DNA of 64,000 nt from Chitinispirillum alkaliphilum (GCA_001045525.1 LDWW01000010.1:62001-126000), one strand, 5' to 3'. Shown: positions 30,144-56,501, counted from the first letter of the stretch. Notes: generated by a model from the letters alone, not told the origin. Translations and numbers: made by a program.

Positions 30144-30183
30144 AAGTTTCTCCTTGTAAAGTTTATTCTGCCTACTCTCAACA

Positions 30184-32221: not shown

Positions 32222-33622
32222 TTACTCAGACTCATTAATCACCATCTGATACTTTCCTGAGAGCTGTGGTGGTATATCATCCACGTAATCAAATGTTAGT
32301 TTTGTGCGTTTACCGAAATTCTTTTCAACAATCTGCTTTAGTGCTTTTTCTGCAACTGTTCTGAATTGAGAATTCAGAATAAGCCTAACCTTTATATCTT
32401 TATTTTTTGTATAAACGATCTGAAATCTCTTAACTTTAAGTGCAAGATCTGCGTCCATAAAGGCACGGCCCCAGAAGTTTGTTGAGATCATCTTTCCTTC
32501 CTTTGTATAAAAAGCTTCCCCGGTCCTGCCACTTAAATTTTTTATAATCTGCAAATGTCGTCCGCAAGGGCACCTTTCATTCACCACTTCACCAAGGTCC
32601 CCGGTTCTGTATCTTATAAAAGGCATAGGGGAGGGGTTCAGGCTTGTTACCAAAAGCTCTCCATTGTCATCAGTTTCCAGATAATGGCTCTCCTGGAACA
32701 GATGAAGTGCTCCTGCTGGACAAAATCCCCCAATATGACCCACTTCACGCATCCCATACATATTTGTTACATTGGTTTTGAAAGTTTCCTCAATTATTGC
32801 TTTTTCGTGACCATGTAAAGGAGCCGCCCAGGTGATTATCAGCTTGGGTCTGCACACAGGTGCGGCTGAGTTTTCTCTTATATAGCGGGCCAAACCTGCA
32901 GCCGCAGAGGTTATTCCCCACACAACCCGGGGGTTGAATAGATTCAGCTGCTCTGTGATTAACTGGAATTCTTCTTCAGTCAGATTTATTCCTGGTAAAA
33001 CCTGTTGATTCCAGAGTTTTTTTCTCCACATGTTAACTTTGCTTTTTCGCACATAATCCGGCGATACACGAACGAGACGGGATTCTCTGTTCCCTGGTTT
33101 TAACCCAAACCAACTCTTTAAACGTAACTCATTAGCCCAACTGGTAGCAGAAATGGTACCGTTTTCATAAAACACAACTGGTGCACCCGTAGATCCACTT
33201 GACATATTGCGAACCAGTGGATACGGTCTGCAACATGAAAATAGGAGCGGTTCCCCAGGGCCACCCGCAGACCGGTCTGCTCTGGAAATGCTTCTTGTGT
33301 ACCTCCTGTCTATAAGATCCAGTCTTTGCCCTATAACGTTATCTCTTGACAGTGGAGGAAGCAGATGAGTTAACTGATCAATGGTGTCCAAATTTGGTTT
33401 GAACCTTCCAAGGATTTTGCTGTAATAGGGTACCCACTTTGCGGCATGGCTTAGGACCCGACAAATCCTTTCATTCTGTAATGACTTAAGGGTCTCCTCT
33501 GAACTAAATTCAGTTAAAAGATAACGATTATATTCAGAAATTATACCCCGTCTGTTGTAGAGATTCTGGGACAACGGAAAAAGAAGTCTTGCTATCATAG
33601 CCTCATGCATTTTCTGTAACAT
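32222..33622 (-). CDS. CapK/PaaK-like adenylate-forming enzyme
   Basis: A 466-residue member of the phenylacetate-CoA ligase-like branch of adenylate-forming enzymes. It shows the P-loop NMSSGSTGAPVVFYENG, a YGMREVGHIGGFCPAGALHLFQE segment and IRYRTGDLGEVV. CapK-type members sit in capsule and exopolysaccharide loci. They are presumed to activate a carboxylic acid for transfer, without a proven substrate here. The ATG overlaps the end of the GNAT gene by 20 bases; an ATG at 33610 is also possible. Last gene of the assembly-line cluster. Confidence 0.85.
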   Translation of the reverse strand: MLQKMHEAMIARLLFPLSQNLYNRRGIISEYNRYLLTEFSSEETLKSLQNERICRVLSHAAKWVPYYSKILGRFKPNLDTIDQLTHLLPPLSRDNVIGQRLDLIDRRYTRSISRADRSAGGPGEPLLFSCCRPYPLVRNMSSGSTGAPVVFYENGTISATSWANELRLKSWFGLKPGNRESRLVRVSPDYVRKSKVNMWRKKLWNQQVLPGINLTEEEFQLITEQLNLFNPRVVWGITSAAAGLARYIRENSAAPVCRPKLIITWAAPLHGHEKAIIEETFKTNVTNMYGMREVGHIGGFCPAGALHLFQESHYLETDDNGELLVTSLNPSPMPFIRYRTGDLGEVVNERCPCGRHLQIIKNLSGRTGEAFYTKEGKMISTNFWGRAFMDADLALKVKRFQIVYTKNKDIKVRLILNSQFRTVAEKALKQIVEKNFGKRTKLTFDYVDDIPPQLSGKYQMVINESE

Positions 33623-34262
33623 TTTTTATCCTTGTTATTTTATGCCGTGCAAATCCTAAAAAATACTGATATTTGATAAATGCAAATTCTCTCAGTCCAA
33701 CTTTTTGGGATAGTCGTCTGTTTGATTTATTACTCAGTTGTGTTCCGCCATAAAGTCTTGTATACCCCATAGTTTTCATTCTCGAAAAGAGTTCTCTTCG
33801 AAGACTGGTGCCTATTCCACATGATCTGTGCTCCGGATGAACAGATATCTGAATGGAGAAACACTGCCCACCTCTTAATTTCTTCTTGAACCTGATGAGT
33901 GGAATGTCCATGGTATCTAACGCTATAAGATTAAACCCGGTTACTGCACCATCTCTTAAGCATACAAGGCATTTATTACCCTGCTTCAATTTAGAACGGA
34001 TTCCGATCCACTCTTCCATATTGTCTACTTGATCCATAAGGTCTGTTTCGTGTGTTTCAACGAAACGATAAACGAAATCCTTTGATTGGGATGTTATTTT
34101 ATTGTTATTGAACTGCGTAAGGTCGACAGAATAAATTACATAGGTCTTATTGCGGTAGACCGGATAACACATGTAAAGGATGAGTTTTTTTAGAAAGATA
34201 GCAATCCCGTAATCACGGTAATTGCGCAGACCCTTTTTCCACAAATAGCAAATAAGGTTCAT
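33603..34262 (-). CDS. GNAT-family N-acyltransferase
   Basis: A 219-residue acetyltransferase-like protein. The acetyl-CoA-binding segment is ISVHPEHRSCGIGTSLRRELFSRMKTMGYTRLYGGT, which matches the R/Q-x-x-G-x-G/A loop as RSCGIG. The start is set by AAGGGG 7 bases before the ATG at 34262, which leaves a 14-base gap after the DUF362 gene. The substrate could be an amino sugar or an amine on the product of the neighbouring assembly line; this is inference from position only. Confidence 0.75.
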   Translation of the reverse strand: MNLICYLWKKGLRNYRDYGIAIFLKKLILYMCYPVYRNKTYVIYSVDLTQFNNNKITSQSKDFVYRFVETHETDLMDQVDNMEEWIGIRSKLKQGNKCLVCLRDGAVTGFNLIALDTMDIPLIRFKKKLRGGQCFSIQISVHPEHRSCGIGTSLRRELFSRMKTMGYTRLYGGTQLSNKSNRRLSQKVGLREFAFIKYQYFLGFARHKITRIKNVTENA

Positions 34263-34276
34263 CAGTTTTCCCCTTT

Positions 34277-35734
34277 TTACACATGACCTTCCCATTGAGG
34301 GTGTGCTTTAAAGTTCAGATTGAAATTTGTTCCAAACTGTTTCAGATCCATTTTTAATCCATTATGAAAGAGATGCAGATCTTCTGATTTACCTCTGAAG
34401 AGTGGAATGTCAGAACAACTTATATCAAATGATTTTGAGATCAGGGGGATTTTTGTGCAATCAAAACCCATCGCCGTTGCAGCAACGGTATCCACAGCCA
34501 CCGGGGAAAATCCCGCAATCATTGTACCGGATTTAACCGGGTCACACACCAGAGGTCCGTTTCCTTCCCCCCCTACAATGCCATCAACGATCACCAACTG
34601 CTTTCGCTGAACAGTATCCCTGATCCTGCCCTCTTTATCCGCATACATTACTATACGGTTTAAATCTGCCAAAGTCCTCCATAACGTGTCATTGCCATAC
34701 CACATGGCTTCGTAAACCTTGTCCTTGAATGGTATGATACGATGGGTGTTCCACAGCAACTTTTTAGTCACGGCACACACCAGTTTTACGGGCATATATC
34801 TGCTCGATTGTATTGTGTCGTGAAGAAAGGTAGCTATTCTCTTCCGAAAAGATGGATAAATATACTGATCACCTCCCTCTATTGATGAACCGGTAATATA
34901 ATGAGGCACACAGGCTTTACAGGCTGGTATTCCCATATAATTTTTCAATCCAAGGGTGATAGCTGTTCGACGATGTGTTTTGAGTTTTGCAATGTTTATC
35001 ACAGCATCCGCCTTAAGAAAGGAACGTGGAATCACATATTCATGCCTTCCGTCTGAATGGTATTTAACGGTCTTCTTGTAACTGGCAACTGCAATGCGAA
35101 GACGTGAAGAGTCCATGCCAACAAAACGACTATACTCACCAACATCCACATTCTGATACCCTAATGGATCGTGCTCGATCTTCTCCCGATCCCATCTGCC
35201 ATACAGATAACTCCTTTTGGCTCTGTCTAAACGAAGATCAAAGCAGGTAATCGGTATTGTAGTTTGGTTTTTATACCAGTTCAGCAGTTCACCAAGACCG
35301 GAGTTAAGGAGCATCTTGTCGAAATCACTGTAATAAATCTGACTATCTCCAATTGTAATCGTACCTTTACCTCTGAGCGCAAGACAAACATAATCAAGTA
35401 CTGGTCTTACCACTGATGGGTGAACAATAATGGAAAACAAATCTTTTTTTCCAGGGTGCTCATGAGCAACGGTGTTAGGTTTGATAAATACATTCATACC
35501 CGGATTTATAAATTCTGCGAAAGGATTCCATTTTGACGTGTTAATGTTTTTGCTATCGAGTCGTAAATCTATCAACAGATCTCTTAACATTCCGTAAACT
35601 TTATTTGAAGAGTCAGTTTCATTTACAGTTAATTCCGGATACTTTTTATCGGGATGGAATCGGTTATTTACTGGATAGGATATCGCTTTGTCATTGCGAA
35701 TAACTACGATGGATTCACTTTGATTTAGCATCAT
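34277..35734 (-). CDS. DUF362 domain protein
   Basis: A 485-residue protein of the DUF362 type. Family segments are INPGMNVFIKPNTVAHEHPG, DAVINIAKLKTHRRTAITLGLKNYMG, LVIVDGIVGGEGNGP and MIAGFSPVAVDTVAATAMGFD. DUF362 proteins are often linked to iron-sulfur proteins. Here only one CxxC pair (PACKACVPH) is visible and no ferredoxin domain follows, so a cluster is not assured. The frame is open 18 codons upstream, but the ATG at 35734 follows AGAGG. Its job in the cluster is unknown. Confidence 0.8.
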   Translation of the reverse strand: MMLNQSESIVVIRNDKAISYPVNNRFHPDKKYPELTVNETDSSNKVYGMLRDLLIDLRLDSKNINTSKWNPFAEFINPGMNVFIKPNTVAHEHPGKKDLFSIIVHPSVVRPVLDYVCLALRGKGTITIGDSQIYYSDFDKMLLNSGLGELLNWYKNQTTIPITCFDLRLDRAKRSYLYGRWDREKIEHDPLGYQNVDVGEYSRFVGMDSSRLRIAVASYKKTVKYHSDGRHEYVIPRSFLKADAVINIAKLKTHRRTAITLGLKNYMGIPACKACVPHYITGSSIEGGDQYIYPSFRKRIATFLHDTIQSSRYMPVKLVCAVTKKLLWNTHRIIPFKDKVYEAMWYGNDTLWRTLADLNRIVMYADKEGRIRDTVQRKQLVIVDGIVGGEGNGPLVCDPVKSGTMIAGFSPVAVDTVAATAMGFDCTKIPLISKSFDISCSDIPLFRGKSEDLHLFHNGLKMDLKQFGTNFNLNFKAHPQWEGHV

Positions 35735-35822
35735 GTCAAAAACCTCTTTTTTGTTTACCCTTAGAACAGAATGAGTTATTTGGGCCATTCATACTTTAGC
35801 CTGGAGGATGTGAACTGGCCAG

Positions 35823-36008
35823 CTATTCCTGTCCAGAGGCCCTTCTTATAAAACTTCTGATATTAGGTTTGCACGAGGTGCATAGTAGTGAGTCGATTGT
35901 TGTTCCAGAGTAACGATATTGCATAGCAAGGATCCCCGAAATCTGATACCACAAAGAGAAGAAAAAAGGAAGCGCTACCAAGACCATACCTGACATCCCT
36001 CCTGCCAT
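35823..36008 (-). CDS. Possible small membrane protein
   Basis: A 61-codon frame between the PKS-NRPS and DUF362 genes, on the same strand. It has one hydrophobic segment (VLVALPFFFSLWYQISGILAM), a CTSC pair and a basic tail. AGGAGG is present nearby, but its spacing fits no start codon well. No family is recognised. The rest of the 450-base gap around it shows nothing else. Confidence 0.25.
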   Translation of the reverse strand: MAGGMSGMVLVALPFFFSLWYQISGILAMQYRYSGTTIDSLLCTSCKPNIRSFIRRASGQE

Positions 36009-36188
36009 CTGTTATGCTGACTTCTGGCCTCTGTATGCACTTGGGGTCCGGAAAACTGGCCTAACTTAATGCCCTGCATTTATGTGTCCGAGAGCAGAGC
36101 TGGCGTTAGGCTGTAGTACAGACCTATCCAAATGATCTTTGTATTTAACTTATAATAAATGAAGGTGTGTGGATTGGTGAATTTGACT

Positions 36189-39100
36189 CTACTCCCCAGC
36201 CCTGTCCATTACAAAACACTCCTGGTTCGTATCGATTTGATCAATCAGGTCATCTGCTTGCTCTGTAATCTGCCTGGCTTCCATAACCTCCTTTTTAAGT
36301 GCCCTACCCAGTTCTTTTACAAATGGCTCTGTCAGCATGCCCCGGGGATTTACATTGAGCTTATGTACGGCGAGCTTACCCTCAACAAGGTCACCCCAGC
36401 CAAATGACTGGTCGTTTGCCCCGGCAAAATTCTTTTTAGGTATGAATAGTGCGACATTAAGGGGCAAGGGTTTGGGCTGGTAAAGTTCCTGGGCTCTATC
36501 ATTGACCTTTGCTATCTGGACATGATAATATCTGCCCGACCATTCTTTAGCCTTCGCCCTTTTAAGATTTGAAGTTACAATACTCATTCTGACTTTAAGC
36601 CTGCTGAACTCGGTTTTCAGTTTATCGGAAAAAAATCTATAACCCGAATAAATTCCCGCAGACATGAGGTTTTCAAGGTGGTACACAACATTCTGAATGG
36701 GATGAAAGCACTTAAGAATGCGGGGCAACTCCAGACCTTGCAGATTATATGTTTCAAACATGGAGACAAGCGCTACTTTGTGTCCATTTGCGTTTAACTG
36801 TTGCGCCATTTCGTAAGCTATGGCACCGCCAAGACAATACCCGCCCAAATAGTAAGGACCGTTCGGTTGAACTGAGATAATTTCATTAATGTAATCACGT
36901 GCCATTTCCTCAAATGTGGTGTACGGTTCCTCCTTGCCATCTAATCCACGGCACTGAAGTGCATACACAGGCTGCTCTTCGCCTAAATACCGTGCAAGAT
37001 CTCTGTATAACAGAACATTTCCTTCAGCTCCATGCACCAGAAAGAATGGAGGGAGTGATCCTGAAGAATTTAATCTGACCAACCGTGACCATTTTGACCC
37101 GGACCCTCTGTTACGCACAAGCTCAGCAATAGCTTTGATCGTCTGTGCTTCAAAAAGAACAGAAAGAGGCAGTGCAACCCCAAACTCCTCTTCAAGCAGA
37201 ACAAACATCTGAGCAGCAATGAGGGAATGGCCGCCAAGCGAGAAAAAATTCTCATTGATTCCAACTGCCTGCAATCCAAGACACTTTTCCCATATTTTTG
37301 CAATACGAAGCTCTGTTTCATCATTTGGCTGTTCAGCACAGCCTGAGACAGATGAGGTATCGAAAGAAGGCACCGGAAGAGCTTTTTTGTCAATTTTACC
37401 GTTTGGTGTAAGTATAAAACGATCTACAAACTCAAAGTGGGAGGGAACCATAAAATCGGGAAGGGTCTTTTTAAGAAAAGCACGCAGATCATCCGTCGAC
37501 GGTTTAACAGGGTTATTACAAATCATATATGCAACGATTCGAATATCAGAAGAAGTTGGCTGATATGTGGATACAACACACTGCTGTATTGATCCGTAGT
37601 GTGCAAGTGTGTCCTCGATCTCACCAAGCTCTATCCTGTAACCCCGTATTTTTACCTGGTGATCAAGTCTCCCAAGGAAATCCATTAATCCATCGTTTCT
37701 AAGCTTTACAAGATCACCCGTCTTGTAAAGACGTTTACTTTTACCCCAGAGCGAAACCGTTACAAACCGCTCTTCTGTTAATTCAGGACGGTTCAGGTAT
37801 CCTCTCGCCAAACCGTCTCCTCCAATATGTAATTCCCCGGAAGCCCCGATGGGAACCGGGTTATTAAACTGATCCAACACGAAAAATTCTGTGTTTGCGA
37901 TGGGGCGTCCAAGAAAAATTTTCTCACCCACAGCTGTGATCTTATTAACAGAAGACCATATTGTAGTCTCGGTGGGTCCATACATATTCCAGAAACAGCC
38001 CTCCCGATGGATCAACTGATCTGCCAGATCCAAAGGGATCGCTTCTCCACCACAAAGAATTTTAACTCCCAACGGTCTTTTCCAACCTGCTGCAATCATC
38101 AACCGATATGTAACCGGTGTCGCCTGCATGATCGTGACATCATGCCTCGAAACGAGATTGATTATTTCTTTACCATCCATAGTTTGAAATTTACCTGAAA
38201 TGACGATTCTTGCCCCGTAAATCAGGGGTAGGAAAAGCTCCAGCCCGGCTATATCAAAAGACAAAGTAGTTACTGACAGGAGAACATCATCTCTCTCTAT
38301 TCCAGGCTCTTTTGCCATAGAGCAAAGGAAATTAACCAACGCCCGCTGCTCTATTTGTACTCCTTTGGGTTTTCCTGTTGAGCCCGAAGTGTAAATGATA
38401 TACGCCAGGTTGTCGGGTGAAAGTGGATACGAAGTATCGGACTGCTCACATGTCCTTACCTCTTCAGCATCTATGCAGATTTCCTTCCCCCTGAATTCCG
38501 GAAATGCACCCGCCATCTCAGATGTGGTAAGAATAAAGGATGCAGCAGAATCATCGAGCATATAGACAAGACGATCTTTGGGGAATGATGGATCAAGAGG
38601 AAGATAGGCGGCTCCAGACTTCATAATTCCTAATACCGCCACCAACATTTCGATGGACCTTTCAATGTATACTCCCACTACGGTTTGGCCTACTACTCCA
38701 CTGTTTTTGAGAAATTGTGCTACCCGGTCAGCCCTTCCGTTGAGCTCTGCATAGGTGAGACTCTCATTTTCAAAACACACTGCCACTCTCCCCGAATTCT
38801 TTTGAACTGTTTCTTCGAAAAGTTCTGTAAAACAGCTTTGTTTTGGATAGTGAGAATCTGTCGCATTCAACTCTGCGATCATTTTCTGTGTGTATCCTGA
38901 ACAAACCTCAATTTCCGAAACAGGGGCCAGAGGATTTTGAATAAGCTCTTCGATAAGGGTTGTGAAATCACAAAACATTCGCTCTATGGTCTGCTCTTCG
39001 AAAAGATCTGTATTGTATTCCCATAATCCTCCATATTTATCTCCAGAACCCCACATCCACAAAGTGCAGTCAAACTTGGACGTTGCTGTTTTGACTTCAA

Positions 39101-42100
39101 GCTGTCTGCATTCCAGATCAGCCAATGATAGATTTATAGATGAGTCCTGAAACATAAAGCAGGTCTGAAACAGAGGGTTTGATTTCCCATCTCTGGGGGG
39201 GTGAACTGCCTCCACAATCTGCTGAAAGGAAACATTCTGGGTCTCGTGTGCAGCGAACGTCAATTCCTGCACCTTTTTTAACAGATGAGCAAAACTTTCC
39301 CCGGAAGAAAATCTGGTGCGCAAAGGTAATGTGTTCATGCAGCAACCGATAATTGATTCCATATCAGGATGAGTTCTGTTTTCAAACGGGCAACCCACAG
39401 TTATGTCTGTTTTACCTGTATACTTGTGAAGTAGAAGTTTAAAGGCCGTAAGAAAGAATGTAAAAGGTGAGATCCTGTTTTCTTTGCAATATGCACTGAT
39501 CAGGTTTCCAAGACATGGGGTAAGATTTAGTTTTATCGAGGAACCGCGAAAACTCTGGTGAGATGGGCGAGGAAAATCGGAGGGCAGCTCAAGTGGTGGA
39601 GGTTCTGCTGAGAACTGTTCTTTCCAGAACTGAATTTTTCCATTCAGCACAGAAAGCTGCTTTTTTTCCTTAAACCACATCACAAGATCTGCATATTGCA
39701 GCCGGGACCCTTTAGGAACAGGGGCCGGGTTGCCGGCGGCAATCTGTGTGTAATAATTTGACAGCTCCCTGGCAAACAGAACAACCGATGCGTGGTCCAT
39801 AATGCTGTGATGGAAACTGAGCAAAAATATGTGATCGCTGATTGTGAGCTTAACTAATCCAAAACGAACCAGCGGACCTTTATCGAGGATGAAAGGTTTA
39901 GTGCAAAACTGATTTATAACGTTAGTCAGCTTTCGGTCCTGATCAGCAATTGCAGAGAGATCAACATATTCTTGCTTAATTTGGAGATCCGATGAGATGT
40001 TCTGTCTAAGACCTTTGCTGTCAAGAACGAAAACAGTACGTAAACTCTCATGTTGACGGATGAGCTGGGCGATGCTTTTTTCCAAAGCAGCATAGTCCAG
40101 TGGACCCTTAATACGAAAAGCGAGGGGGATATTGTAAACCGCGGTGTCGGGAGCAAGATTGCAGAGAAACCACAACTGTCGTTGCTGGTCCGAAACGGGA
40201 AAAGAATAGCAGTTTCCTGAACTGAATTCAGCCTTGCTTAATTCAGCTTCGAACTCACGTGACACCGGTTTGATCGGTAAGGCTGTTTCGGCCGACGGTT
40301 TTTTCCGCAGCTTCTCTATTTCCAGAGCAAAAGCTGCAATTGTTGGCTTCCGGAAAAGAGCTTTCAATGACAGTTCCACATTAAATTTTTTTCCAAGTCG
40401 CACAGCAATTTGTGTTAAAAGCAGGGAGTGTCCGCCTAACTCCATAAAATTGTCATCAATTCCTACTGAAGAGAATCCCAGAACTTCCTCCCAGATTTCT
40501 GCGATCTCTTTTTGAACCTCCGTTGATGGTTCTATATAGGGAGTGGAGAGGTTGGGGCGTGAGGCGCCGTTGTATTGCACTGAGCACCTTTTTTGATCCG
40601 TTTGGTTACTTGCTGTACCAGGCTCTATCCAGAAAGACTTTCGTGTGAAGGCGTAAGTGGGCAAGGGAATACGGCGGGGATTTCTCCCGGTCCATAAATC
40701 AGACCATTCGGGATTGCATCCTGACAACCAGAGTTTACCAACCAGATGCAGAAAGGATTTTTGATAGTCTGCCATTGTATCGGAACAGGGAAATGATGCA
40801 ATAATTTCATGGCATTCGCCTAAATCAGGCTTTTTCCTAAGAAATGAACACAATTTTTCCCCGGGACCAAGCTCAACGGACACTCTGTTTGAGACCTTTG
40901 CCAAGTTATTTAAACCGGTTGTTATCTGGCTTGGTTCGCCAAATTGCCTTATCCAATAGTTAGGGTCCAAAGCTTCATTTTTTGTTATCTCAGAACCACT
41001 CAGGCTTGAAATAAATGGCACTTCAGGAGCATTGAATTTGACCTTTAGAAGTTCACACAAGAAGCTTTCAGAAGAGAGCTTTCCTGATATCTGGTCCTGA
41101 TGCAAAACACCTCGTGCAGCTACAATCCTGAGTGCATCTTCCAAATTAAAAACTCCACTCACGCATGCAGCGACATATTCACCAACACCCTCCCCAGCCA
41201 TCACAGATGGCTCTATTTTAAGCCTGATTAAACGCATTGCCATTGCATAGGAGATAATAAAAAGAGCCGGTTCAGTCCATGATTTCTGATTGATTTCGGG
41301 TAAGTCTGAAACTGAAAATCTGGAATCTGGTAAAAAGAACTTTTTATAATCGATATTAATAAGAGAATCTAAAATATTAATGGATTTATCAATAATTTCG
41401 CGGAAAAAAGAATCCTGCTGATACAGTGCTCTGCAAGCGTCTGGATTTGGCATTCCTTGGCCGGGAAACATAAAGACCACTGATGGATCTTCGCCTTTAT
41501 GAACTGCTCTTGATACCTGGGTAGAAGCGGTCGCATTCAAGGCTTCTGCGAGCTCATCGGTTCCAACCCCTACATAGAATTGACGGTGAGTAAATGTGTT
41601 TCTTCCTATTTGTAATGTATACGCAATATCGGACGAATTAATGTCGGGTTTTTCGGTGCAAAAACGTACAAATTTTTCAGATAGACTTTTAAGTGAAGAA
41701 TCGTTTTTTGCAGACCAGATAAAAAGGGAGGGCTTTCTGTCTGGTTCTGCAGATGGTAACCGGGGTGGTTCTTCCAGAATAACATAAGCATTCGATCCAC
41801 CAACTCCCATTGCACCTACACCCGCACGCCGTGGATGATCTGTTCCGTTCCAGTCTGTTAATTGGGTGTTAACAATAAATGGACTGCTTTCAAAGCTGAT
41901 TGCAGGATTTGGTTTTTCATAGTTGATAGATGGAGGGATCTTTTTTTCTTTAAGTGCCATAACAGTTTTTATCAATCCTGCTATACCCGCAGCAGTGTCG
42001 AGATGTCCGATATTTGATTTTACCGAACCAGCCCTGCAAAATCCTTTTTTGTTCGTAAATTTCCTGAAAGCCTGGGTAAGCGCTGAAATTTCTATCGGGT

Positions 42101-43076
42101 CACCGATAGGTGTTCCTGTGCCAGCTTCCACGAGTGAAATGGTCTCAGGATCGATCTGTCCCACTGTTATGGCCTCTGTGATTGCCCTGATCTGTCCATC
42201 AACTCCCGGAGCGAAATACCCTGCCTTCATCGACCCATCATTATTTATTGCAGTTCCCTTTATTATTGCATGTATTGTATCTCTGTCATCAAAAGCATCT
42301 GCTATTCTTCGCAGCACCACAACTCCCGCACCGCTTCCCAGTACTGTTCCATCAGCTTTGTGATCGAACACCCGGCATTGACCACCTCTTGATAATATTT
42401 CTCCCTCTTTATAGATGTAGCCCCTGTTATGATCTGGATTGATGGTGACAGCACCGGCCAGTGCAATGTCACATTCACCATTAAGCAGACTCTGAACAGC
42501 GCCATGAACCGCTGTTAACGATGTTGAGCAGGCTGTTTGTATGCTCATACTCGGGCCTGTCAGATTCATGCAATAGGAAACTCGTGTTGCAAGGAAATCT
42601 TTGTCATTTCCCGTGTGTCTCAAAAAGAAGAGGCCTGCAGAGTTAACCAAATCAGGATTCGACATGATGTTATAGATGAAGTAATTATTCATACCGCATC
42701 CGGCAAAAACACCTATCGATCCATTAAACTGCTCCTGAGAGTGCCCGGCATCCTCAAGGGCCTCCCATGCGACTTCAAGGAAATGTCGATGCTGAGGGTC
42801 CATCACCATAGCCTCTTTGGGGTTAAGTCCAAAAAATTCTGCATCAAACAAATCGATCTCTTTAAAAGGAATGCCGGCTTTTATGAAACTGGAATTTTTC
42901 AAAAGGGAATCACCGACCCCAGCTTTGCTCAAATGTTCATCAGAATAAAAGCGTACAGATTCCCTGGCGCTTATGAGATTATTCCAGAAATCATTGTAAT
43001 TCTTTGCGTCCGGGAAATGACAAGCCATACCCGTGACTGCGATATCCAATTCAGAATAGCCAGATGGTACACTCAT
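36189..43076 (-). CDS. PKS-NRPS with degenerate KS and AT domains
   Basis: A 2295-residue assembly-line protein. Domains: ketosynthase (8-435), acyltransferase remnant (533-770), carrier (850-925, Ser884 in LGGHSL), condensation (955-1390, HHSIMDH at 1089-1095), adenylation (1430-1900, YTSGSTGKPKG, NGKIDKK), carrier (1920-1990, Ser1951) and thioesterase (2010-2270). The KS keeps Cys183 (TACSTS) and His358 (KSNIGH), but the usual VEAHGTGT reads VEAGTGT (316-322): the catalytic His is absent. The AT reads GEGVG (628-632) instead of GHSxG and is about 80 residues short. The TE has Cys2081 (GYCLGG) in place of Ser. The A-domain code reads DILQLGMIWK, close to glycine codes as I remember them. AAGGG precedes the ATG. 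Confidence 0.93.
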   Translation of the reverse strand: MSVPSGYSELDIAVTGMACHFPDAKNYNDFWNNLISARESVRFYSDEHLSKAGVGDSLLKNSSFIKAGIPFKEIDLFDAEFFGLNPKEAMVMDPQHRHFLEVAWEALEDAGHSQEQFNGSIGVFAGCGMNNYFIYNIMSNPDLVNSAGLFFLRHTGNDKDFLATRVSYCMNLTGPSMSIQTACSTSLTAVHGAVQSLLNGECDIALAGAVTINPDHNRGYIYKEGEILSRGGQCRVFDHKADGTVLGSGAGVVVLRRIADAFDDRDTIHAIIKGTAINNDGSMKAGYFAPGVDGQIRAITEAITVGQIDPETISLVEAGTGTPIGDPIEISALTQAFRKFTNKKGFCRAGSVKSNIGHLDTAAGIAGLIKTVMALKEKKIPPSINYEKPNPAISFESSPFIVNTQLTDWNGTDHPRRAGVGAMGVGGSNAYVILEEPPRLPSAEPDRKPSLFIWSAKNDSSLKSLSEKFVRFCTEKPDINSSDIAYTLQIGRNTFTHRQFYVGVGTDELAEALNATASTQVSRAVHKGEDPSVVFMFPGQGMPNPDACRALYQQDSFFREIIDKSINILDSLINIDYKKFFLPDSRFSVSDLPEINQKSWTEPALFIISYAMAMRLIRLKIEPSVMAGEGVGEYVAACVSGVFNLEDALRIVAARGVLHQDQISGKLSSESFLCELLKVKFNAPEVPFISSLSGSEITKNEALDPNYWIRQFGEPSQITTGLNNLAKVSNRVSVELGPGEKLCSFLRKKPDLGECHEIIASFPCSDTMADYQKSFLHLVGKLWLSGCNPEWSDLWTGRNPRRIPLPTYAFTRKSFWIEPGTASNQTDQKRCSVQYNGASRPNLSTPYIEPSTEVQKEIAEIWEEVLGFSSVGIDDNFMELGGHSLLLTQIAVRLGKKFNVELSLKALFRKPTIAAFALEIEKLRKKPSAETALPIKPVSREFEAELSKAEFSSGNCYSFPVSDQQRQLWFLCNLAPDTAVYNIPLAFRIKGPLDYAALEKSIAQLIRQHESLRTVFVLDSKGLRQNISSDLQIKQEYVDLSAIADQDRKLTNVINQFCTKPFILDKGPLVRFGLVKLTISDHIFLLSFHHSIMDHASVVLFARELSNYYTQIAAGNPAPVPKGSRLQYADLVMWFKEKKQLSVLNGKIQFWKEQFSAEPPPLELPSDFPRPSHQSFRGSSIKLNLTPCLGNLISAYCKENRISPFTFFLTAFKLLLHKYTGKTDITVGCPFENRTHPDMESIIGCCMNTLPLRTRFSSGESFAHLLKKVQELTFAAHETQNVSFQQIVEAVHPPRDGKSNPLFQTCFMFQDSSINLSLADLECRQLEVKTATSKFDCTLWMWGSGDKYGGLWEYNTDLFEEQTIERMFCDFTTLIEELIQNPLAPVSEIEVCSGYTQKMIAELNATDSHYPKQSCFTELFEETVQKNSGRVAVCFENESLTYAELNGRADRVAQFLKNSGVVGQTVVGVYIERSIEMLVAVLGIMKSGAAYLPLDPSFPKDRLVYMLDDSAASFILTTSEMAGAFPEFRGKEICIDAEEVRTCEQSDTSYPLSPDNLAYIIYTSGSTGKPKGVQIEQRALVNFLCSMAKEPGIERDDVLLSVTTLSFDIAGLELFLPLIYGARIVISGKFQTMDGKEIINLVSRHDVTIMQATPVTYRLMIAAGWKRPLGVKILCGGEAIPLDLADQLIHREGCFWNMYGPTETTIWSSVNKITAVGEKIFLGRPIANTEFFVLDQFNNPVPIGASGELHIGGDGLARGYLNRPELTEERFVTVSLWGKSKRLYKTGDLVKLRNDGLMDFLGRLDHQVKIRGYRIELGEIEDTLAHYGSIQQCVVSTYQPTSSDIRIVAYMICNNPVKPSTDDLRAFLKKTLPDFMVPSHFEFVDRFILTPNGKIDKKALPVPSFDTSSVSGCAEQPNDETELRIAKIWEKCLGLQAVGINENFFSLGGHSLIAAQMFVLLEEEFGVALPLSVLFEAQTIKAIAELVRNRGSGSKWSRLVRLNSSGSLPPFFLVHGAEGNVLLYRDLARYLGEEQPVYALQCRGLDGKEEPYTTFEEMARDYINEIISVQPNGPYYLGGYCLGGAIAYEMAQQLNANGHKVALVSMFETYNLQGLELPRILKCFHPIQNVVYHLENLMSAGIYSGYRFFSDKLKTEFSRLKVRMSIVTSNLKRAKAKEWSGRYYHVQIAKVNDRAQELYQPKPLPLNVALFIPKKNFAGANDQSFGWGDLVEGKLAVHKLNVNPRGMLTEPFVKELGRALKKEVMEARQITEQADDLIDQIDTNQECFVMDRAGE

Positions 43077-43464
43077 ATTCTCATCCCTTTTTAAGGTTCA
43101 TTATTGTACTTGCCAGTGTAAGGAACAACTACACTACTGCATTCTTTTTTTGACAAGGAAAATCAGCTGCAACAGATACTGCACATATTAGCTTTCTCCT
43201 TCAGTGCGTGGCGAGAATTGTAGGGGATATTTGAATCCATCCCTTAGGTGTGGAATATGGGAGATTTTGAACCGGATAAAAATCTTTTGTAAGGGTTCGA
43301 GAACCCTGTTACTCCTTAAACAATGTCTTTGCCTTGCTGACTCCGTGCTCTTAAACATGCCCATCAGAGGGCGAATAATTCAATACACAAATGGTTTTTC
43401 AAAGGGGCAATGTTTCAGGTGTCAAACAACACGTTGCTGAGCATAAATCTGGAGTAGGGCACCC
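43077..43464. other. Gap upstream of the PKS-NRPS gene, with a hairpin
   Basis: About 390 bases with no gene. A palindrome, AGGGTTCGAGAACCCT (43292-43307), is followed on the minus strand by TACAAAAGATTTTTA. It may terminate the upstream acyltransferase-carrier transcript or attenuate the PKS-NRPS. A 14-base word, GTGTCAAACAACAC (43419-43432), recurs just upstream of the NRPS gene. Confidence 0.5.
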
Positions 43465-44472
43465 CTAAGTTTGCATTCTGGCCTGACGGCGCCTTTGAAA
43501 TAAGTCTCCTGAAAGCTGAGGTGTCGTTACTGTTTTTTGTTTACCATTTGAGATGTTTTTATTTAAAACTGTTTCGGCAAGGCAACGGGCTGTTGGGAAT
43601 TGAAAAATTTCGATGAGTGTCAGTTCGCTGCAGCCAGAACCCACGAGTGCAGAATGTGCCTGAACAGCAAGTTGAGATGTTCCTCCTGAGTCGAAAAAAT
43701 TATCATCAATACCTATCTTATCCAGTTTCAGTACATCACACCAGATATCCAGGATCAGGCGTTCAAGGCTTTCCTTGCTCTGCGTTTCTTCTTTATCGGT
43801 GCTCTTCTCCATCTTAGCAACCTCCCGGTTGCTGCCGGAACAGATTATCTGTGCCGGTACTCCAATAGCTGTAGCGTTTGGGGGGACATTTTCCATAACC
43901 CCGGTATTTAATCCTATGGTAGCCCACTCTCCGATTTCAAGATCCGGAAGGATCGAGGCATTTGTTCCGACATATACACCATCGCCAAGCCTTACACGTG
44001 CATTCAGAACCGCTCCGGGTGCAACCACACAAAACGAACCTATCGAACAGCCATGCCCAACAATTCCCCCAGTGAAAACAACCGATCCCTGATCAAGAAA
44101 TGCACCGGCAGAGAACACCACATTTTGATATACCATGACATCTCCACGCCATTCCACTCCCCGTGTGTCAACGCTCGTATCAATCAGAGGTGCGAAAGGG
44201 ATGCCATACTTTCCTATCTTTTCGTAAGCATCTTTTCGCCTGGCTGTAGTTCTGGCTATCAGATTGGCCACTTCATCCTCTTGCGGGCAAGCCGTTTTTA
44301 ACAATTCAAAGGGACCAGCTACTTCAAGCCCCATGATCTTTTTACCCTTTTTTGATGTGTCATCATCGAGTATGACAATTTGTTTCCAACGCTTTTCTCT
44401 TTCATTTATTCTTAAAGCCAGCCGAACGCCTTCAGGATTTCCCGCACCGCAAAGATACAGTGTAGAATTCAT
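43465..44472 (-). CDS. Left-handed beta-helix acyltransferase fused to a carrier domain
   Basis: A 335-residue fusion. Residues 1-210 resemble NeuD/PglD sugar O- or N-acetyltransferases: an N-terminal Rossmann half (YLCGAGNPEGVRLAL), then hexapeptide repeats with His140 in IVGHGCSIG and the closing AIGVPAQII. Residues 235-310 are a phosphopantetheine carrier (IDDNFFDSGGTSQLAV, Ser266). A tethered acyl group could thus be handed to the transferase in the same chain. The start follows GGAGG with 5-base spacing. It lies between the radical SAM and PKS-NRPS genes, with a carrier type matching the assembly line. Confidence 0.85.
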   Translation of the reverse strand: MNSTLYLCGAGNPEGVRLALRINEREKRWKQIVILDDDTSKKGKKIMGLEVAGPFELLKTACPQEDEVANLIARTTARRKDAYEKIGKYGIPFAPLIDTSVDTRGVEWRGDVMVYQNVVFSAGAFLDQGSVVFTGGIVGHGCSIGSFCVVAPGAVLNARVRLGDGVYVGTNASILPDLEIGEWATIGLNTGVMENVPPNATAIGVPAQIICSGSNREVAKMEKSTDKEETQSKESLERLILDIWCDVLKLDKIGIDDNFFDSGGTSQLAVQAHSALVGSGCSELTLIEIFQFPTARCLAETVLNKNISNGKQKTVTTPQLSGDLFQRRRQARMQT

Positions 44473-44638
44473 CTAACCTCCATTTTTCAAATGTGCAATT
44501 AATCGGGGATAATATGCTATCCTAATATTGACAAAAAAAACTTCTGAGAAATTTTTGGAATCTGAATTCTTTTGGTATCTGTGTCGGCAACATAACGAAA
44601 CCATGCTGAACCGGAATGGTGATAAAAATTTGAGACCG

Positions 44639-45586
44639 TTAAACTGATATTGCTGAATCCTTTATGTCGGGTTGTATCCGCTCGGCAGAACCGGTCATCC
44701 AGTCGGTACATTCTTTACATCTCTGCGGAAGGTCATCAAATTTTTTTTCCATGTGCATTCGCCGGTATACACCCAGTTTTCCCCATAGCTGCTCAAGAGG
44801 TTCATCCCATGCATTGCCGGCACTCTCTTCTCCTTCAATATCACCGGGACAACGCGGCACTCTTCCGTCCCAAAATACATGCATCATAGTGCATGCCCAT
44901 GGACATGCGATACGATGCTCTTGGGGGATATCGACCGGTACATCAAATGCCCCCCCCCAGCTTAGCATTCTGCGTACTTTTGCAGTTGCACCACGAGAAA
45001 GCCAATACTCTTTAAAAGTACTAAGCTCATGGGCATTTTCCTCCATTTCAATAAACTGAACCTGTACTTCAGGCTTATTGTTTCTGGCCTGAACTGTTTT
45101 AAGGAATTTTTCCACGTTTCCATACACTACATCACGCCTTGCTTCCACCCGGATTTTCTCCAGAGTTTCTGCCGAAAAGGCATCGATTCCAAAAACAACA
45201 AGGTCTACACCAGAATCTGCAACGGGCTCAGCCCATTCAGGAGTAAGCAACATACCGTTTGTATTGATGTTTAATGACAAAAGACCTGCCCTTTTCCCGT
45301 ATTGTATCATTTTAATCAGCTGTTGGGGTTCAAGCAGGGGCTCACCACAAAAAGAAAACCAGCACTGCGTCTGGGGAGAAACTGCAGCAATCTGATCTGC
45401 ACACCTCTTCCATAACTCAAAAGGCATTCTGCCTTTGGGCCTTTTCATGCCGGGGTGATGACACATGCTGCATTTAAGGTTACACTCAGCAGTTACTTCC
45501 ACTGCAAATCTGGTCGGAAACATAAGGTCCTGTAATGTTGATTCTATGCTCCTGAGGTAAGTAAAATCTGTTTCACTTTTTCTCAT
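44639..45586 (-). CDS. Radical SAM/SPASM-like enzyme
   Basis: A 315-residue radical SAM protein. The cluster-binding CNLKCSMC (Cys35, Cys39, Cys42) follows FAVEVTAE, and FCGEPLLEP is the GGEP-like SAM contact. A C-terminal cysteine set (IACPWACTMMH, VPRCPGD, QRCKECTDW) suits a SPASM/twitch auxiliary cluster. Such enzymes modify peptides, sugars or carrier-bound substrates. Its position between the NRPS and the carrier-fused acyltransferase suggests action on the assembly-line intermediate or product. A good site (AAAGGA) precedes the ATG. Confidence 0.88.
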   Translation of the reverse strand: MRKSETDFTYLRSIESTLQDLMFPTRFAVEVTAECNLKCSMCHHPGMKRPKGRMPFELWKRCADQIAAVSPQTQCWFSFCGEPLLEPQQLIKMIQYGKRAGLLSLNINTNGMLLTPEWAEPVADSGVDLVVFGIDAFSAETLEKIRVEARRDVVYGNVEKFLKTVQARNNKPEVQVQFIEMEENAHELSTFKEYWLSRGATAKVRRMLSWGGAFDVPVDIPQEHRIACPWACTMMHVFWDGRVPRCPGDIEGEESAGNAWDEPLEQLWGKLGVYRRMHMEKKFDDLPQRCKECTDWMTGSAERIQPDIKDSAISV

Positions 45587-45682
45587 GCCATTTTCCTTTT
45601 TGAATTAAGCGTTCGAAGCGGAAATATAAACTGACAGGCAATTCTGGGCCGTTTTTTTCTTTCGTTACCAGGAGCAAAGCGC

Positions 45683-48600
45683 TCACGGATTTTTTCTGGC
45701 GCTGAGTCTGGAATGTCTACGCTTACTCAGAACCGGGATGTCACATTTTTTTTTCAGAGCTTTTTTCACATTTTTACCATTTAGATAGCAGATAAATGAA
45801 CGGATAGTAGGATACTGAAAAATATCGGTTAGTGTAAGATTCTCAAAGAGCTCTTTTTTAAGGCGATTATGAAGCTGCATGGCCAAAAGAGAATGTCCTC
45901 CAAGATCGAAAAAGTTGTCACTTGTACATACGTCTTCAATTTTCAGTATTGATTTCCAAATATCAGCAACTGCCTTTTCCATCTCACTGCCGGATTCGGC
46001 TATTGAAGCGTCTGGTTTCATTTTTTCTGGTGTCGGCAGTGCTTTGCGGTCAACCTTTTTATTGGGCGTAAGTGGAAAGGATTTTAACTGTATATAACGA
46101 GCCGGAACCATATATTCGGGCAGTAGTTCCCTTAAATAATGGCTCACATCCTTACCCGAGAGATCAAGCCCTTCTTTGCATATATAGTATGCATTCATTC
46201 GTATGTCATCAGGATCGTCTGTGGTCACAGTGAGAGCGGCTTCGATTATATCCGGGTGTCTCATTAAGAGCTCTTCAATTTCTCCCAGCTCTATTCTGTG
46301 CCCACGGATTTTAACCTGATAATCTGTACGCCCATAGAAATTCAAAATACCATTTTCGCTGATACCTGCCAGATCTCCGGTTTTGTAAAGCTTCTCATTT
46401 GAGAACAGTTCTGAACTTTTGGTTACGAATTTATCACTTGTAAGTTCAGGGCGATTATGATACCCTGCGGCTACTCCTTCACCACCAATAAACAGCTCAC
46501 CAACGACATTTGGAGGAACAAGCTGACCATTATTATTAAAGATGTATACCGATGTATTTGCAATTGGGCTTCCTATTGCCACACCATGCTCCAGGTCCCC
46601 TGACACATTATGGGCAGTCGACCATATCGTGGTCTCAGTAGGACCATACATGTTGAGAAGTTCCCCTCCGAGCACCTTCTTTAGATCAGAGGCAAGTGCC
46701 AGAGGCAGTGCTTCACCCCCAACCAGCATTGTTCTCAATCGTTTTAACGCAAAAGCTGACTCAGGATCTGTTATCAGCATTCTGGCCATTGATGGTGTAC
46801 ACTGAAAGTGAGTAACAGAATGTTTATGGACCAATGATGAAAATGAACCGCTATTGTCAATTTCAGAGTCTGAGCCGATCCGTTCAGTTTTTTTGTCAGA
46901 TTTTTTATACTTCCGTCTTCCGATATTGGATAACAGTACAATTTGAATACCCCGTGTGAGGGTCCAGAGTATCTCCAGAACAGATATGTCAAAAGAAAGC
47001 GTTGTTGCGGCAAGCCAGACAGATGATTTATCATATTTAATAATGTCATCCATTCCGGAAAAGAAGTTCATCACATTTCTGTGTGATATAATGACTCCCT
47101 TTGGCTGACCGGTTGATCCGGAAGTATAGATAACATAGGCAGCAGAATCTGAAGAGACCTCCAGTGGTGGGTTGTCTTCTTTTACGGTCTTTGAATTATC
47201 CATGTAATCACTGACATCGATTATTACTGTGTCAGACATTGGTAAGGAATCTGAACCGTCTGTGAGCAGGATATTGATATTTGCATCACTGGCCATAAAC
47301 TGGATCCGGGATTCGGGAAATTCCGGATCAATTGGTACATACGCACCACCCGCTTTAAAAGTGGCAAGGATTGCCGCAACCGTAGCGATCGATTGATCCG
47401 CATTAACTCCAATAAAACTGCCTCTCTTCACTCCAAGTGAAAGAAGTTTGTATGCCACCCGGTTTGCAAGTTTGTTAAGAGCACCAAAGGAAATCGAACT
47501 CTCACCATGAACAACAGCCGTTCTCTCTGGATAGAGCAGTGCAGCCTCTTCAAACAAACGGTGAATACAAGTATCTGACAAAAACGGCTTTACTGTTTTT
47601 TTGCACATCTCACGTATAAGCCCTCTTTCCTCGGGAACAAGAAGTGACAGATCCCTGAGTTTCTTTTCCCTGCACTGCACTATCTCTGCAATCAGTGCTG
47701 TAATTCGTTTACACAATACACTGGCAGTTTTTTTTGAATACCTGCTGCAATCATATTCCAGCTTAAAGTGCATGGAAGTATCCTGATAGGCAAACAGAGA
47801 CAGGGGATAGCCGGTTTGTTCATGCACTGAAAAATTTCTTTTATGCCAGGTCTTTGAAAGAGAACGCATTCTTGTGTCAAGAGAGTACTTTTCAAAGATC
47901 AGTATTGTCTCAAAAAGGGTTTGGCCCCCATGAATTTCTGAAACCTTCTGGATGTCGATCAATGAAGCATGGCAGTGTTGTCTAATGGTAATCTGATCCT
48001 TCCGGATTGAGCGCAACCATTCCAAAACATCCATGTCGCCATCTATTTTTGTCCGCACTGGCACGGTGTTCATCAACAGACCCAACATATCAGAAGATCC
48101 TGAAACATTTTTGCTTCTACAGGAACGAACCGTTCCGAAAAGGATTTCGCTTTCTCCTGAATAGGCATATAGCAAAACCGACCACATTCCATGCAGAATT
48201 GTATAGGGTGTAATATCCAGTTCTTTGGCAAAACGAACCATATCGTGGGTAAGAGCCGGGCTAAGATCAAAGCAGATTACACTATGTCCGGTTTTCTGAT
48301 CTCCCTCAGTGTACTTATGCGTGTTTGCCGGAATAGGTGTGATACTGGTAATTCCCTTCAGGTATTTTTCCCAGAATGCAACTGCGGCCTGATGATCATA
48401 GCGTTTTAACCATTCTAAATAGTTTTCAAACGGGGGTAATTCCGGCAATTGTATAGTACGGTTTTCTATTATTGCAGCATAAATGGAGAAAAGCCTTTCA
48501 AGAATGACAGGAATAGATCTGCCGTCAAGGATTATGTGGTGAAAAGTCCATATTTGAATGTATGATTCTTTATCCAGACAAAACAGGGTGACTCTCATGA

Positions 48601-49024
48601 GAGGTGGTTCATCCAGTTTGAATTCCCGTTTCCTGTCTTCAAACAGAAATTTCCTTATCGCCTCTTCCCTTTGAACTTCGGGAAAAGAGGAAATATCATG
48701 AACAGAAAAATAAGCATGTTTACAATCGCATTTGAATTGAGCGATCCCTTCATTCCCTTTCCACAAAAAGCCGCTGTGAAGTACTGAATGCATGGAGAGA
48801 AGTGTATCCCATGAGCTTTTTAGATGCCCCACATCAATTGCTTCTCTAATCCTACATTCAATCTGAAGGATATGGTCACCGGAACCTTCTTTATACCCGG
48901 CATTGAAAAACATACCCTGCTGCATTGGTGTCAGTGAGAGAGTATTAGTGTTGCTGGAATACTCTTCATTCTTTATCAGGTTTGAACGCCCAGGATAAAA
49001 AGGGCCTTTGTTGAGGGAATTCAC
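45683..49024 (-). CDS. Nonribosomal peptide synthetase module (C-A-PCP)
   Basis: A 1113-residue single module. The condensation domain (about 28-460) has an intact HHIILDG at 162-168. The adenylation domain (about 490-1000) has YTSGSTGQPKG, YGPTETTIW, GRTDYQVKIRGHRIELGEIE and NKKVDRK. The PCP has DNFFDLGGHSLLAMQ. It has no thioesterase, so the product must pass to another protein. The specificity code read by alignment to GrsA is DILQLGMIWK, identical to that of the PKS-NRPS. A lysine- and glutamate-rich insert (about 46840-46930) lies in the A core. The start is GTG behind GGAG. A starting C domain implies an acyl donor from elsewhere. Confidence 0.93.
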   Translation of the reverse strand: MNSLNKGPFYPGRSNLIKNEEYSSNTNTLSLTPMQQGMFFNAGYKEGSGDHILQIECRIREAIDVGHLKSSWDTLLSMHSVLHSGFLWKGNEGIAQFKCDCKHAYFSVHDISSFPEVQREEAIRKFLFEDRKREFKLDEPPLMRVTLFCLDKESYIQIWTFHHIILDGRSIPVILERLFSIYAAIIENRTIQLPELPPFENYLEWLKRYDHQAAVAFWEKYLKGITSITPIPANTHKYTEGDQKTGHSVICFDLSPALTHDMVRFAKELDITPYTILHGMWSVLLYAYSGESEILFGTVRSCRSKNVSGSSDMLGLLMNTVPVRTKIDGDMDVLEWLRSIRKDQITIRQHCHASLIDIQKVSEIHGGQTLFETILIFEKYSLDTRMRSLSKTWHKRNFSVHEQTGYPLSLFAYQDTSMHFKLEYDCSRYSKKTASVLCKRITALIAEIVQCREKKLRDLSLLVPEERGLIREMCKKTVKPFLSDTCIHRLFEEAALLYPERTAVVHGESSISFGALNKLANRVAYKLLSLGVKRGSFIGVNADQSIATVAAILATFKAGGAYVPIDPEFPESRIQFMASDANINILLTDGSDSLPMSDTVIIDVSDYMDNSKTVKEDNPPLEVSSDSAAYVIYTSGSTGQPKGVIISHRNVMNFFSGMDDIIKYDKSSVWLAATTLSFDISVLEILWTLTRGIQIVLLSNIGRRKYKKSDKKTERIGSDSEIDNSGSFSSLVHKHSVTHFQCTPSMARMLITDPESAFALKRLRTMLVGGEALPLALASDLKKVLGGELLNMYGPTETTIWSTAHNVSGDLEHGVAIGSPIANTSVYIFNNNGQLVPPNVVGELFIGGEGVAAGYHNRPELTSDKFVTKSSELFSNEKLYKTGDLAGISENGILNFYGRTDYQVKIRGHRIELGEIEELLMRHPDIIEAALTVTTDDPDDIRMNAYYICKEGLDLSGKDVSHYLRELLPEYMVPARYIQLKSFPLTPNKKVDRKALPTPEKMKPDASIAESGSEMEKAVADIWKSILKIEDVCTSDNFFDLGGHSLLAMQLHNRLKKELFENLTLTDIFQYPTIRSFICYLNGKNVKKALKKKCDIPVLSKRRHSRLSARKNP

Positions 49025-49125: not shown

Positions 49126-49992
49126 TTAAAATTCCTGATAATTCCTTAAAAATTTGTTCAATGAAATTTGCCACTCCGGGATCTCTATTTGGAAAACCTG
49201 CTTAGCCTTATGTTTTGTAAGGAAACTGTTTACCGGTCTCTTTGCCCTGGTGGGAAACTCTTTGGTGCTGATCGGGACAATATGGCAGCTGTTTTGTATG
49301 TGACCATACTTTTTACCCAGCTCATAAATACTGCAGGCAAATTCATACCAGCTGGTCCTTCCCTCGTTGGAGAAGTGGTATATTCCCCATTGCTCAGAAC
49401 GGTGTGTGATTATGTGTGTTATGAATTGTGATAAGTCCCGTGTCCAGGTTGGGCTGCCCCACTGATCCGATACTACTCCCACACGATCCCGCTCGTTCAT
49501 AAGCTTTATCATTGTAGAAACAAAATTCGTTCCATGCTTACCATACAACCAGGAGGTGCGGATAATGAAGTGATGCTCTGTAGTCTGCCGGACCTTAATC
49601 TCTCCTGCCAATTTACTCTGACCATAAACTCCAATTGGCTTTGTCTTCATATCTTCGGTTAATCCATTGACCTGTGTGCCATCAAACACATAGTCAGTAG
49701 AGATGTGCAGCAAAGGTATGCTCAAAAGTCTTGCTATACCGGCCAGGTTTCCCGGCCCCTTCTCATTAACACAGAAAGCCTTTTCTCTTTCATCCTCCGC
49801 ATTGTCCACTGCAGTGTATGCAGAGCAATTTACAATTGCCTTAATTGCTTTGTCTTCGACAAACGAAAAAATCTGTGAGCGGTTGGTTATATCAACTTCA
49901 ATGTCGGATGCAATAACCTCCTGTCCGCTTTTTTCGAGACTCTTTATCAAATCACTGCCAAGCATACCCTTGCTGCCTGTCACCCAGATCAT
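49126..49992 (-). CDS. rfbD: dTDP-4-dehydrorhamnose reductase
   Basis: Reduces dTDP-4-keto-L-rhamnose to dTDP-L-rhamnose. The roughly 288-residue extended short-chain dehydrogenase has the nucleotide motif WVTGSKGMLGSDL, the STDYVFDG strand and the catalytic YGQSK. The frame is open 19 codons upstream, but AAGGGG precedes the ATG at 49992 and the fold begins there. rfbC is encoded upstream on the same strand; rfbA and rfbB are not in the window. Confidence 0.92.
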   Translation of the reverse strand: MIWVTGSKGMLGSDLIKSLEKSGQEVIASDIEVDITNRSQIFSFVEDKAIKAIVNCSAYTAVDNAEDEREKAFCVNEKGPGNLAGIARLLSIPLLHISTDYVFDGTQVNGLTEDMKTKPIGVYGQSKLAGEIKVRQTTEHHFIIRTSWLYGKHGTNFVSTMIKLMNERDRVGVVSDQWGSPTWTRDLSQFITHIITHRSEQWGIYHFSNEGRTSWYEFACSIYELGKKYGHIQNSCHIVPISTKEFPTRAKRPVNSFLTKHKAKQVFQIEIPEWQISLNKFLRNYQEF

Positions 49993-50309
49993 ACTTTCCC
50001 CTTTTGATTGTAGTGAGAGTTGGCGATTCTGGTCTAACATCTGATGCACTTGGGAAATTTTGTTTCGAAGGTAAATCTGATTTAACTTGGAAAGCAGTCA
50101 GAAAATTGTGTCTTGTACTATCAAGAATAGAACAACCCGTAAAGTATAAATTCACTCATCTTCGTCTGACAATACTTGAGGATCAGAAGATGTGTATAAA
50201 AACAGCCGCTTGGGTAAGCGCACCGGGGAGACCAAGGGCCAATTGCCGGATGCAATAGATCAACTAAAGGCGGAATCACCGCAAATCGACTGCGAGGCCG
50301 ATGGAGGAT
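49993..50309. other. Gap between rfbC and rfbD
   Basis: About 317 bases with no gene I can support. It separates two genes that are usually adjacent. A plus-strand frame across it shows no family features. Confidence 0.45.
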
Positions 50310-50852: not shown

Positions 50853-51022
50853 TTGATTACCCCGACTGTTTAAGAGTTAAGTGCTTTTGATGCCATCATT
50901 TACACCATTTTCAATTGTGGAGGGATATGTATGAAAAAGATTTCAAAATAGTGTTGAAATCTTTTTGGACAGGTTTTTATAATATCAGAGAATCATTACA
51001 TTTTCTCAGTAAGAGCAGGACT

Positions 51023-56425: not shown

Positions 56426-56501
56426 AGTTATCCCATTAAATAATTTTTCTATTCAGAAAAAAGAGTATCTGTATAGATTGGATAGTTAATTAATCGATTA
56501 T

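Follow-up and report, generated by a model that had tools for sequence, protein, structure and literature searches.

A Nonribosomal Peptide Synthetase Cluster beside Exopolysaccharide Genes of Chitinispirillum alkaliphilum Might Decorate a Surface Polymer

A 64,000-nucleotide stretch of the Chitinispirillum alkaliphilum genome (GCA_001045525.1, LDWW01000010.1:62001-126000; hereafter the window) carries, at positions 32222–49024 on the minus strand, a cluster of nonribosomal peptide synthetase (NRPS) and polyketide synthase (PKS) genes next to genes for exopolysaccharide (EPS) formation. The best of the explanations considered here—which we favor tentatively and with somewhat less than even confidence—is that the cluster decorates a surface polymer or its lipid carrier with a short acyl or aminoacyl group, and this explanation ranks ahead of a surface-associated small molecule. 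A functional link of such assembly lines with surface polymers is in itself likely, because the arrangement is real and recurrent. Decoration had been proposed by an initial annotation of this DNA; it is supported in part, by the recurring link to surface-polymer genes, the presence of DUF362 and CapK relatives in polysaccharide loci, the kinship of a NeuD-type domain with amino-sugar enzymes, the lack of an exporter in the cluster, and the loss of a thioesterase triad, whereas dependence on an exosortase and a working polyketide step find weaker support or none.

All main genes of the cluster show clear Pfam or NCBIfam matches, so that the gene content and common strand given by the initial annotation hold. 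In the direction of transcription these are an NRPS, a radical S-adenosylmethionine (SAM) protein, a NeuD-type acyltransferase fused to a peptidyl carrier protein (PCP), a hybrid PKS–NRPS, a DUF362 protein, a GNAT acyltransferase, and a PaaK/CapK-like ligase. The last three genes overlap by about 20 bp, and the remaining gaps measure about 100, 100, 170, 390, and 400 bp.

The nearest comparison system is the XrtA/PEP-CTERM type of EPS locus with its acyl-CoA ligase (TIGR03098), hydrolases 1 and 2 (TIGR03100/TIGR03101), FemAB protein (TIGR03019), and amidotransferase (TIGR03108). As in those loci, an adenylate-forming, carrier-based acyl module stands in an EPS locus together with an exosortase, a PEP-CTERM protein, Wzc, and AsnB in the window, and in relatives within the order, hydrolase 1/2 or FemAB adjoins NRPS genes. 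The window differs in that complete NRPS/PKS modules take the place of a free ligase, its adenylation (A) domains reaching 211 of 592 bits on TIGR03098. None of the XrtA accessory models exceeds its cut-off in the window, whose AsnB scores 460 of 817 bits on TIGR03108, and the genome of the window holds no match to TIGR03019 or TIGR03101; TIGR03019 passes its cut-off only in relatives.

Similar neighborhoods recur in the order. An NRPS lies beside an exosortase, hydrolases 1 and 2, glycosyltransferases, and Wzy in one genome (G030, contig C34); an NRPS/PKS lies beside Wzc and a FemAB gene above cut-off in another (G014 C476); and NRPS or hybrid genes adjoin hydrolases 1 and 2 and a GT4-family gene (G017 C162) or glycosyltransferases, a polysaccharide deacetylase, and WecG (G018 C279 and C310). 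The initial annotation had called for a search for the co-occurrence of the gene set with exosortase/EPS genes, and in this search strong XrtA markers stand within 20 kb of 4 of the 20 NRPS loci of the order against 0.40 expected by random placement (P 0.0005; 3 of 19 and P 0.006 if the window locus is left out)—values that are optimistic, as the FemAB/hydrolase markers and score limits were picked after being seen at some loci, and that contig breaks bias in the opposite direction. With the exosortase as the sole marker, the pattern is repeated only at G030. The locus of this genome (L037, C34:26000-45000) encodes an A-PCP-C-A-PCP protein (C, condensation domain) between XrtA-type hydrolases and the exosortase; its codes are serine-like and glycine-like, and the locus represents the same idea in a simpler, more complete form. 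Two further loci were observed alongside. The end of G014 C12 (L089) carries hydrolase 2/1, glycosyltransferase, polysaccharide lyase, and CapK genes and breaks off in hydrolase 2; with C476 (L032), which has its PKS–NRPS at one end, it may form one broken EPS locus. In a genome of the same family (G019), an NRPS reading frame spans about 8715 amino acids (C182, about 69676–89802).

A reduced version of the cluster is found in a sister species of Chitinispirillum (genome G005). Here, the order is rmlC-rmlD-[C-A-PCP-TE]-DUF362-GNAT-CapK (TE, thioesterase), followed by a FemAB-like gene (103 of 260 bits on TIGR03019) that is truncated where the contig stops. This stretch lacks the first NRPS, the radical SAM protein, the NeuD–PCP fusion, and the ketosynthase–acyltransferase–acyl carrier protein (KS-AT-ACP) part. 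The cluster proteins are 61–81% identical between the two species (the GNAT protein is also given as 60%), and the synteny with rmlCD is kept at 84–88% identity. Ratios of nonsynonymous to synonymous substitution rates (dN/dS) of 0.09–0.28 for C, A, PCP, TE (0.275), DUF362, GNAT, and CapK—from a simple Nei–Gojobori count in which dS is high for CapK and GNAT—reveal purifying selection on this conserved core. No exosortase match was detected in the G005 genome, a metagenome-assembled genome of 97% completeness; hence, the core probably does not need an exosortase, which is probably a neighbor of the cluster rather than a required partner. The position between an exosortase and an EPS operon was thus described correctly by the initial annotation, but its term "inserted" is doubtful, since the core stands beside rmlCD in a sister species without a detected exosortase.

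The stand-alone NRPS module (C-A-PCP, 45683–49024, minus strand; PF00668, PF00501, PF00550) and the NRPS half of the hybrid protein (KS-AT-ACP-C-A-PCP-TE, 36189–43076, minus strand; Pfam matches and alignments) have intact core motifs in their C, A, and PCP domains, as expected of a genuine NRPS. Both A domains bear the identical specificity code DILQLGMIW, which we take to be glycine-like by established specificity codes, so that activation of glycine is predicted from sequence for both modules. In the module shared with the sister species, the C domain has elongation domains (such as DhbF-type and TycC entries) and not starter domains as its closest PDB chains, an assignment of C-domain type by ranking only. 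Between the two proteins lies the radical SAM/SPASM protein (44639–45586, minus strand; PF04055, PF13186), whose best NCBIfam match is spiroSPASM with 102 of 250 bits.

The PKS half presents a different picture. Aligned with six homologues of the same order, all of which keep intact KS and AT catalytic residues, the window KS has lost the histidine of HGTGT by deletion and keeps the active Cys183 and His358; in the AT, GEGVG replaces GHSxG, and the subdomain with the AFHS histidine is deleted. The Cys-His-His and Ser-His sets of an elongating type I PKS are therefore incomplete. Because the KS histidine is deleted, the AT serine lost, and an AT subdomain deleted, this half appears catalytically dead, and functional polyketide extension was rejected. 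The TE is altered as well: Cys2081, Glu2108, and Pro2244 occupy the positions where the Ser-Asp-His of a canonical chain-releasing thioesterase is expected, which makes ordinary release unlikely. In the alignment, this change is common to both Chitinispirillum species, and four relatives carry Ser-Asp-His. In these two species the TE with Cys-Glu-Pro (window and L030:2098-6228) is still under purifying selection.

Three further enzymes could handle acyl groups. The NeuD–PCP fusion (43465–44472, minus strand; PF00132, PF00550) has a catalytic-type His140 and the PCP Ser266. Its NeuD-type domain stays below the TIGR03570 subfamily cut-off (127.5 of 160.8 bits) and has PglD, VioB, and PerB as closest PDB relatives. 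With these amino-sugar N-acetyltransferases it shares the left-handed beta-helix domain and the aligned histidine; it differs from them by its C-terminal PCP and by a glycine instead of an acidic residue after the histidine. The GNAT acyltransferase (33603–34295, minus strand; PF00583, 38.7 bits) matched only general GNAT models when compared with models of N-acyl amino acid synthases and exosortase-associated acyltransferases, and a role as N-acyl amino acid synthase was rejected for want of a model match. The PaaK/CapK-like adenylate-forming ligase (32222–33622, minus strand) gives partial matches to NF045666, NF053551, and TIGR02155. Like CapK-type ligases of capsular polysaccharide loci, it stands among polysaccharide genes and has relatives in several such loci, but it is only 22–28% identical to relatives outside the genus.

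The DUF362 protein (34277–35788, minus strand; PF04015) belongs to a subfamily found in polysaccharide loci across many phyla. Scanning genome contigs with a DUF362 alignment turned up 12 strong loci, which belong to Chitinispirillum, Bacteroidales, PVC bacteria, Geomobilimonas, Spartobacteria, Mitsuokella, Omnitrophota, Lachnospiraceae, Butyrivibrio, Eubacterium, and Chitinivibrionales, with glycosyltransferases, Wzy, Wzx, Wzc, and an initiating sugar transferase among the neighbors. Five of the loci outside the genus also hold relatives of CapK, which at three of the five are immediate neighbors or lie one gene away. DUF362 and CapK relatives co-occur in polysaccharide loci that lack any NRPS.

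The predicted structure of the DUF362 protein (AlphaFold2, predicted TM-score 0.86) resembles LarA, whose superfamily comprises nickel-pincer racemases and epimerases of 2-hydroxy acids: LarA or LarA-like proteins make up nearly all of the first 19 PDB matches in a fold search, at TM-scores of only 0.21–0.35. Within the subfamily, His272 and Lys282 are invariant and His296 is nearly invariant. In an hhalign comparison with LarA (E 0.0033, low probability), the first two align with the catalytic His174 and the cofactor-binding Lys184, and His296 falls one residue off the nickel ligand His200. The His-x9-Lys pattern is present in 17 distant DUF362 loci as well, and the entire DUF362 family, near and distant (L043-L071), may consist of LarA-like enzymes, judged by this pattern and the later histidine at similar spacing. 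Both families belong to one Pfam clan, CL0471 (PMC11770544), and the literature searched ties DUF362 to LarA only as an outgroup. On the other side, the protein is of the DUF362 and not the DUF2088 family, and by our own reading of the alignment the first catalytic histidine of LarA has no evident counterpart. A profile search against PDB sequences returned nothing useful, and no signal emerged when hhalign was run with a DUF2088 alignment of two sequences. LarE is found in 13 of 13 genomes hosting the DUF362 loci versus 5 of 14 controls, and LarC in 11 of 13 versus 6 of 14, the controls not being lineage-matched; the genome of the window has LarC and LarE and no PF09861 match. This co-occurrence is a lead, not proof, since other DUF362 paralogues may use the cofactor.

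From these elements we infer which substrates are used, how the steps follow one another, and what the acceptor and final location are. The cluster would act as an accessory module of the surface-polysaccharide locus, whose NRPS modules would activate small amino acids—glycine is predicted—on carrier domains. The CapK-like ligase would probably activate another carboxylic acid, possibly a 2-hydroxy acid, the stereochemistry of which a LarA-like DUF362 enzyme might set. The PKS domains would not extend the chain and might at most serve as scaffold or relay. Since no hydrolytic triad remains in the terminal TE, the short acyl or aminoacyl chain would be handed on to an EPS precursor, most likely from the carrier to an amine or hydroxyl by NeuD–PCP and/or GNAT; this acceptor might be a nucleotide sugar or a lipid-linked sugar. 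A more specific version, to which we give a rather low probability, has the NRPS line as the donor of surface-polysaccharide substituents, transferred to sugar by the carrier-tethered NeuD-type enzyme and/or GNAT with the help of a DUF362 protein from a new, polysaccharide-linked class of nickel-pincer-nucleotide enzymes. If decoration is true, NRPS modules would gain a second role, as makers of ornaments for structural surface polymers, and anyone who mines genomes and classes such clusters as secreted natural products would be after the wrong molecule. For DUF362, an uncharacterized family, this yields the concrete hypothesis that its members are LarA-like nickel-pincer enzymes, with one branch taking part in polysaccharide building.

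Several observations speak against decoration of a surface polymer by this route. In the stretches read, 13 of the 20 NRPS loci of the order show no polysaccharide link. The NeuD–PCP fusion has no counterpart at E<=1e-20 in the other 167 of 168 genomes of the phylum (Fibrobacterota), matches in plasmids span at most 63% of the query, and its absence from the sister cluster puts it outside the conserved core. A tblastn search of the window and its flanks retrieved no DegT-type aminotransferase that could supply an amino-sugar acceptor. Also, the TM-scores behind the LarA-like reading of the DUF362 protein are modest, and the profile match is weak.

The strongest competitor, possible yet on balance unlikely, is a membrane-bound or secreted small N-acyl or peptidyl amino acid that is made in parallel to the EPS and plays a role like that of long-chain N-acyl amino acids. 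Synthase genes for the latter are reported to adjoin PEP-CTERM/exosortase genes (Craig et al. 2011, as cited in PMC4897644 and PMC7293339), and the window shares with PEP-CTERM-linked systems such as those of the stieleriacines an acyl-amino-acid type of chemistry beside exosortase/EPS genes; moreover, the single C-A-PCP-TE module of the sister species could acylate one amino acid. However, the window uses NRPS modules instead of a single GNAT-fold synthase, its GNAT matches no synthase model, hydrolytic release residues are missing from the TE, the cluster has no exporter, and the conserved module's C domain ranks nearest to elongation and not to starter entries. Acyl-amino-acid enzymes near PEP-CTERM/exosortase genes are thus published, and the acyl ligase and hydrolase families of XrtA loci are curated, so that the NRPS/PKS arrangement is a variation on these and not a new category. 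A literature search retrieved no paper joining exosortase, polyketide synthase, and exopolysaccharide, and neither the 2006 PEP-CTERM paper nor the description of C. alkaliphilum mentions such genes.

Considerably less probable is a chance neighborhood of EPS genes and the genes for an ordinary secreted nonribosomal peptide. The phylum does contain unrelated NRPS genes, and NRPS loci without visible polysaccharide genes exist elsewhere in the order, but the conserved synteny with rmlCD, the recurring XrtA/EPS linkage, and the home of DUF362 and CapK in polysaccharide loci of other phyla argue against chance. In addition, neither an exporter nor a regulator is found within the cluster, as the initial annotation had stated; its further claim of a missing phosphopantetheinyl transferase was rejected, as the genome has, at other places, an AcpS-type gene and an Sfp-type gene whose best matches, AusB/HetI, stay below cut-offs. 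Least probable of all is a decaying cluster without present function, for which the dead PKS—absent altogether in the sister species—and the lost TE triad would be steps to loss, since the reading frames stay open across 2295 and 1113 codons, the A, C, and carrier motifs are intact, the TE changes are identical in both species, and the dN/dS values are those of constrained genes.

The flanks of the cluster are largely as initially annotated. On the upstream side follow RmlD, the dTDP-4-dehydrorhamnose reductase (49126–50049, minus strand; PF04321), directly upstream of the cluster, and RmlC, the dTDP-4-dehydrorhamnose 3,5-epimerase (50310–50852, minus strand; PF00908). An EPS block (54306–63379, minus strand; Pfam and NCBIfam matches) then encodes two pyruvyl transferases, three glycosyltransferases, the AsnB-type amidotransferase, and a Wzy candidate of 426 amino acids without Pfam match (58821–60101, minus strand); beyond the window's edge the block also includes FrhB, a glycosyltransferase, a Wzx-type flippase, and a third pyruvyl transferase. 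On the other side lie a Wzc-like chain-length determinant/tyrosine autokinase (26966–29410, minus strand; PF13614, PF13807, TIGR01007 above cut-off), a PEP-CTERM-type protein whose translation ends in VPEPSTFALL...KKIKKF (29511–30188, minus strand), and the exosortase (30507–31412, minus strand; PF09721, 145.9 bits). Together with the nearby EPS genes, these three proteins form the basic set expected of an XrtA-type EPS/PEP-CTERM system, although the exosortase itself scores under every XrtA–W cut-off, with XrtC (153.8 of 300 bits) as the nearest model. A YdcF-like gene without Pfam match, named from the similarity of a relative and our own reading (31473–32084, plus strand), lies on the opposite strand between the CapK-like gene and the exosortase and thereby places the exosortase outside the transcription unit of the cluster. 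Promoter and terminator scans did not rise above chance (42 versus 38.6 and 20 versus 17.6, respectively).

The possible small protein of the initial annotation, an open reading frame of 61 amino acids at 35823–36008, was rejected, as the corresponding gap in the sister species is unconserved with 109 of 247 aligned bases identical. Adjoining rmlC, a divergent gene without Pfam match (50915–52090, plus strand) is kept in the sister species, and its end resembles by eye a type 9 secretion sorting domain. Farther away, the gene at 10561–11859 (minus strand) weakly matches EreB-type erythromycin esterases (46 bits, cut-off 750) and is probably a distant relative with another function.

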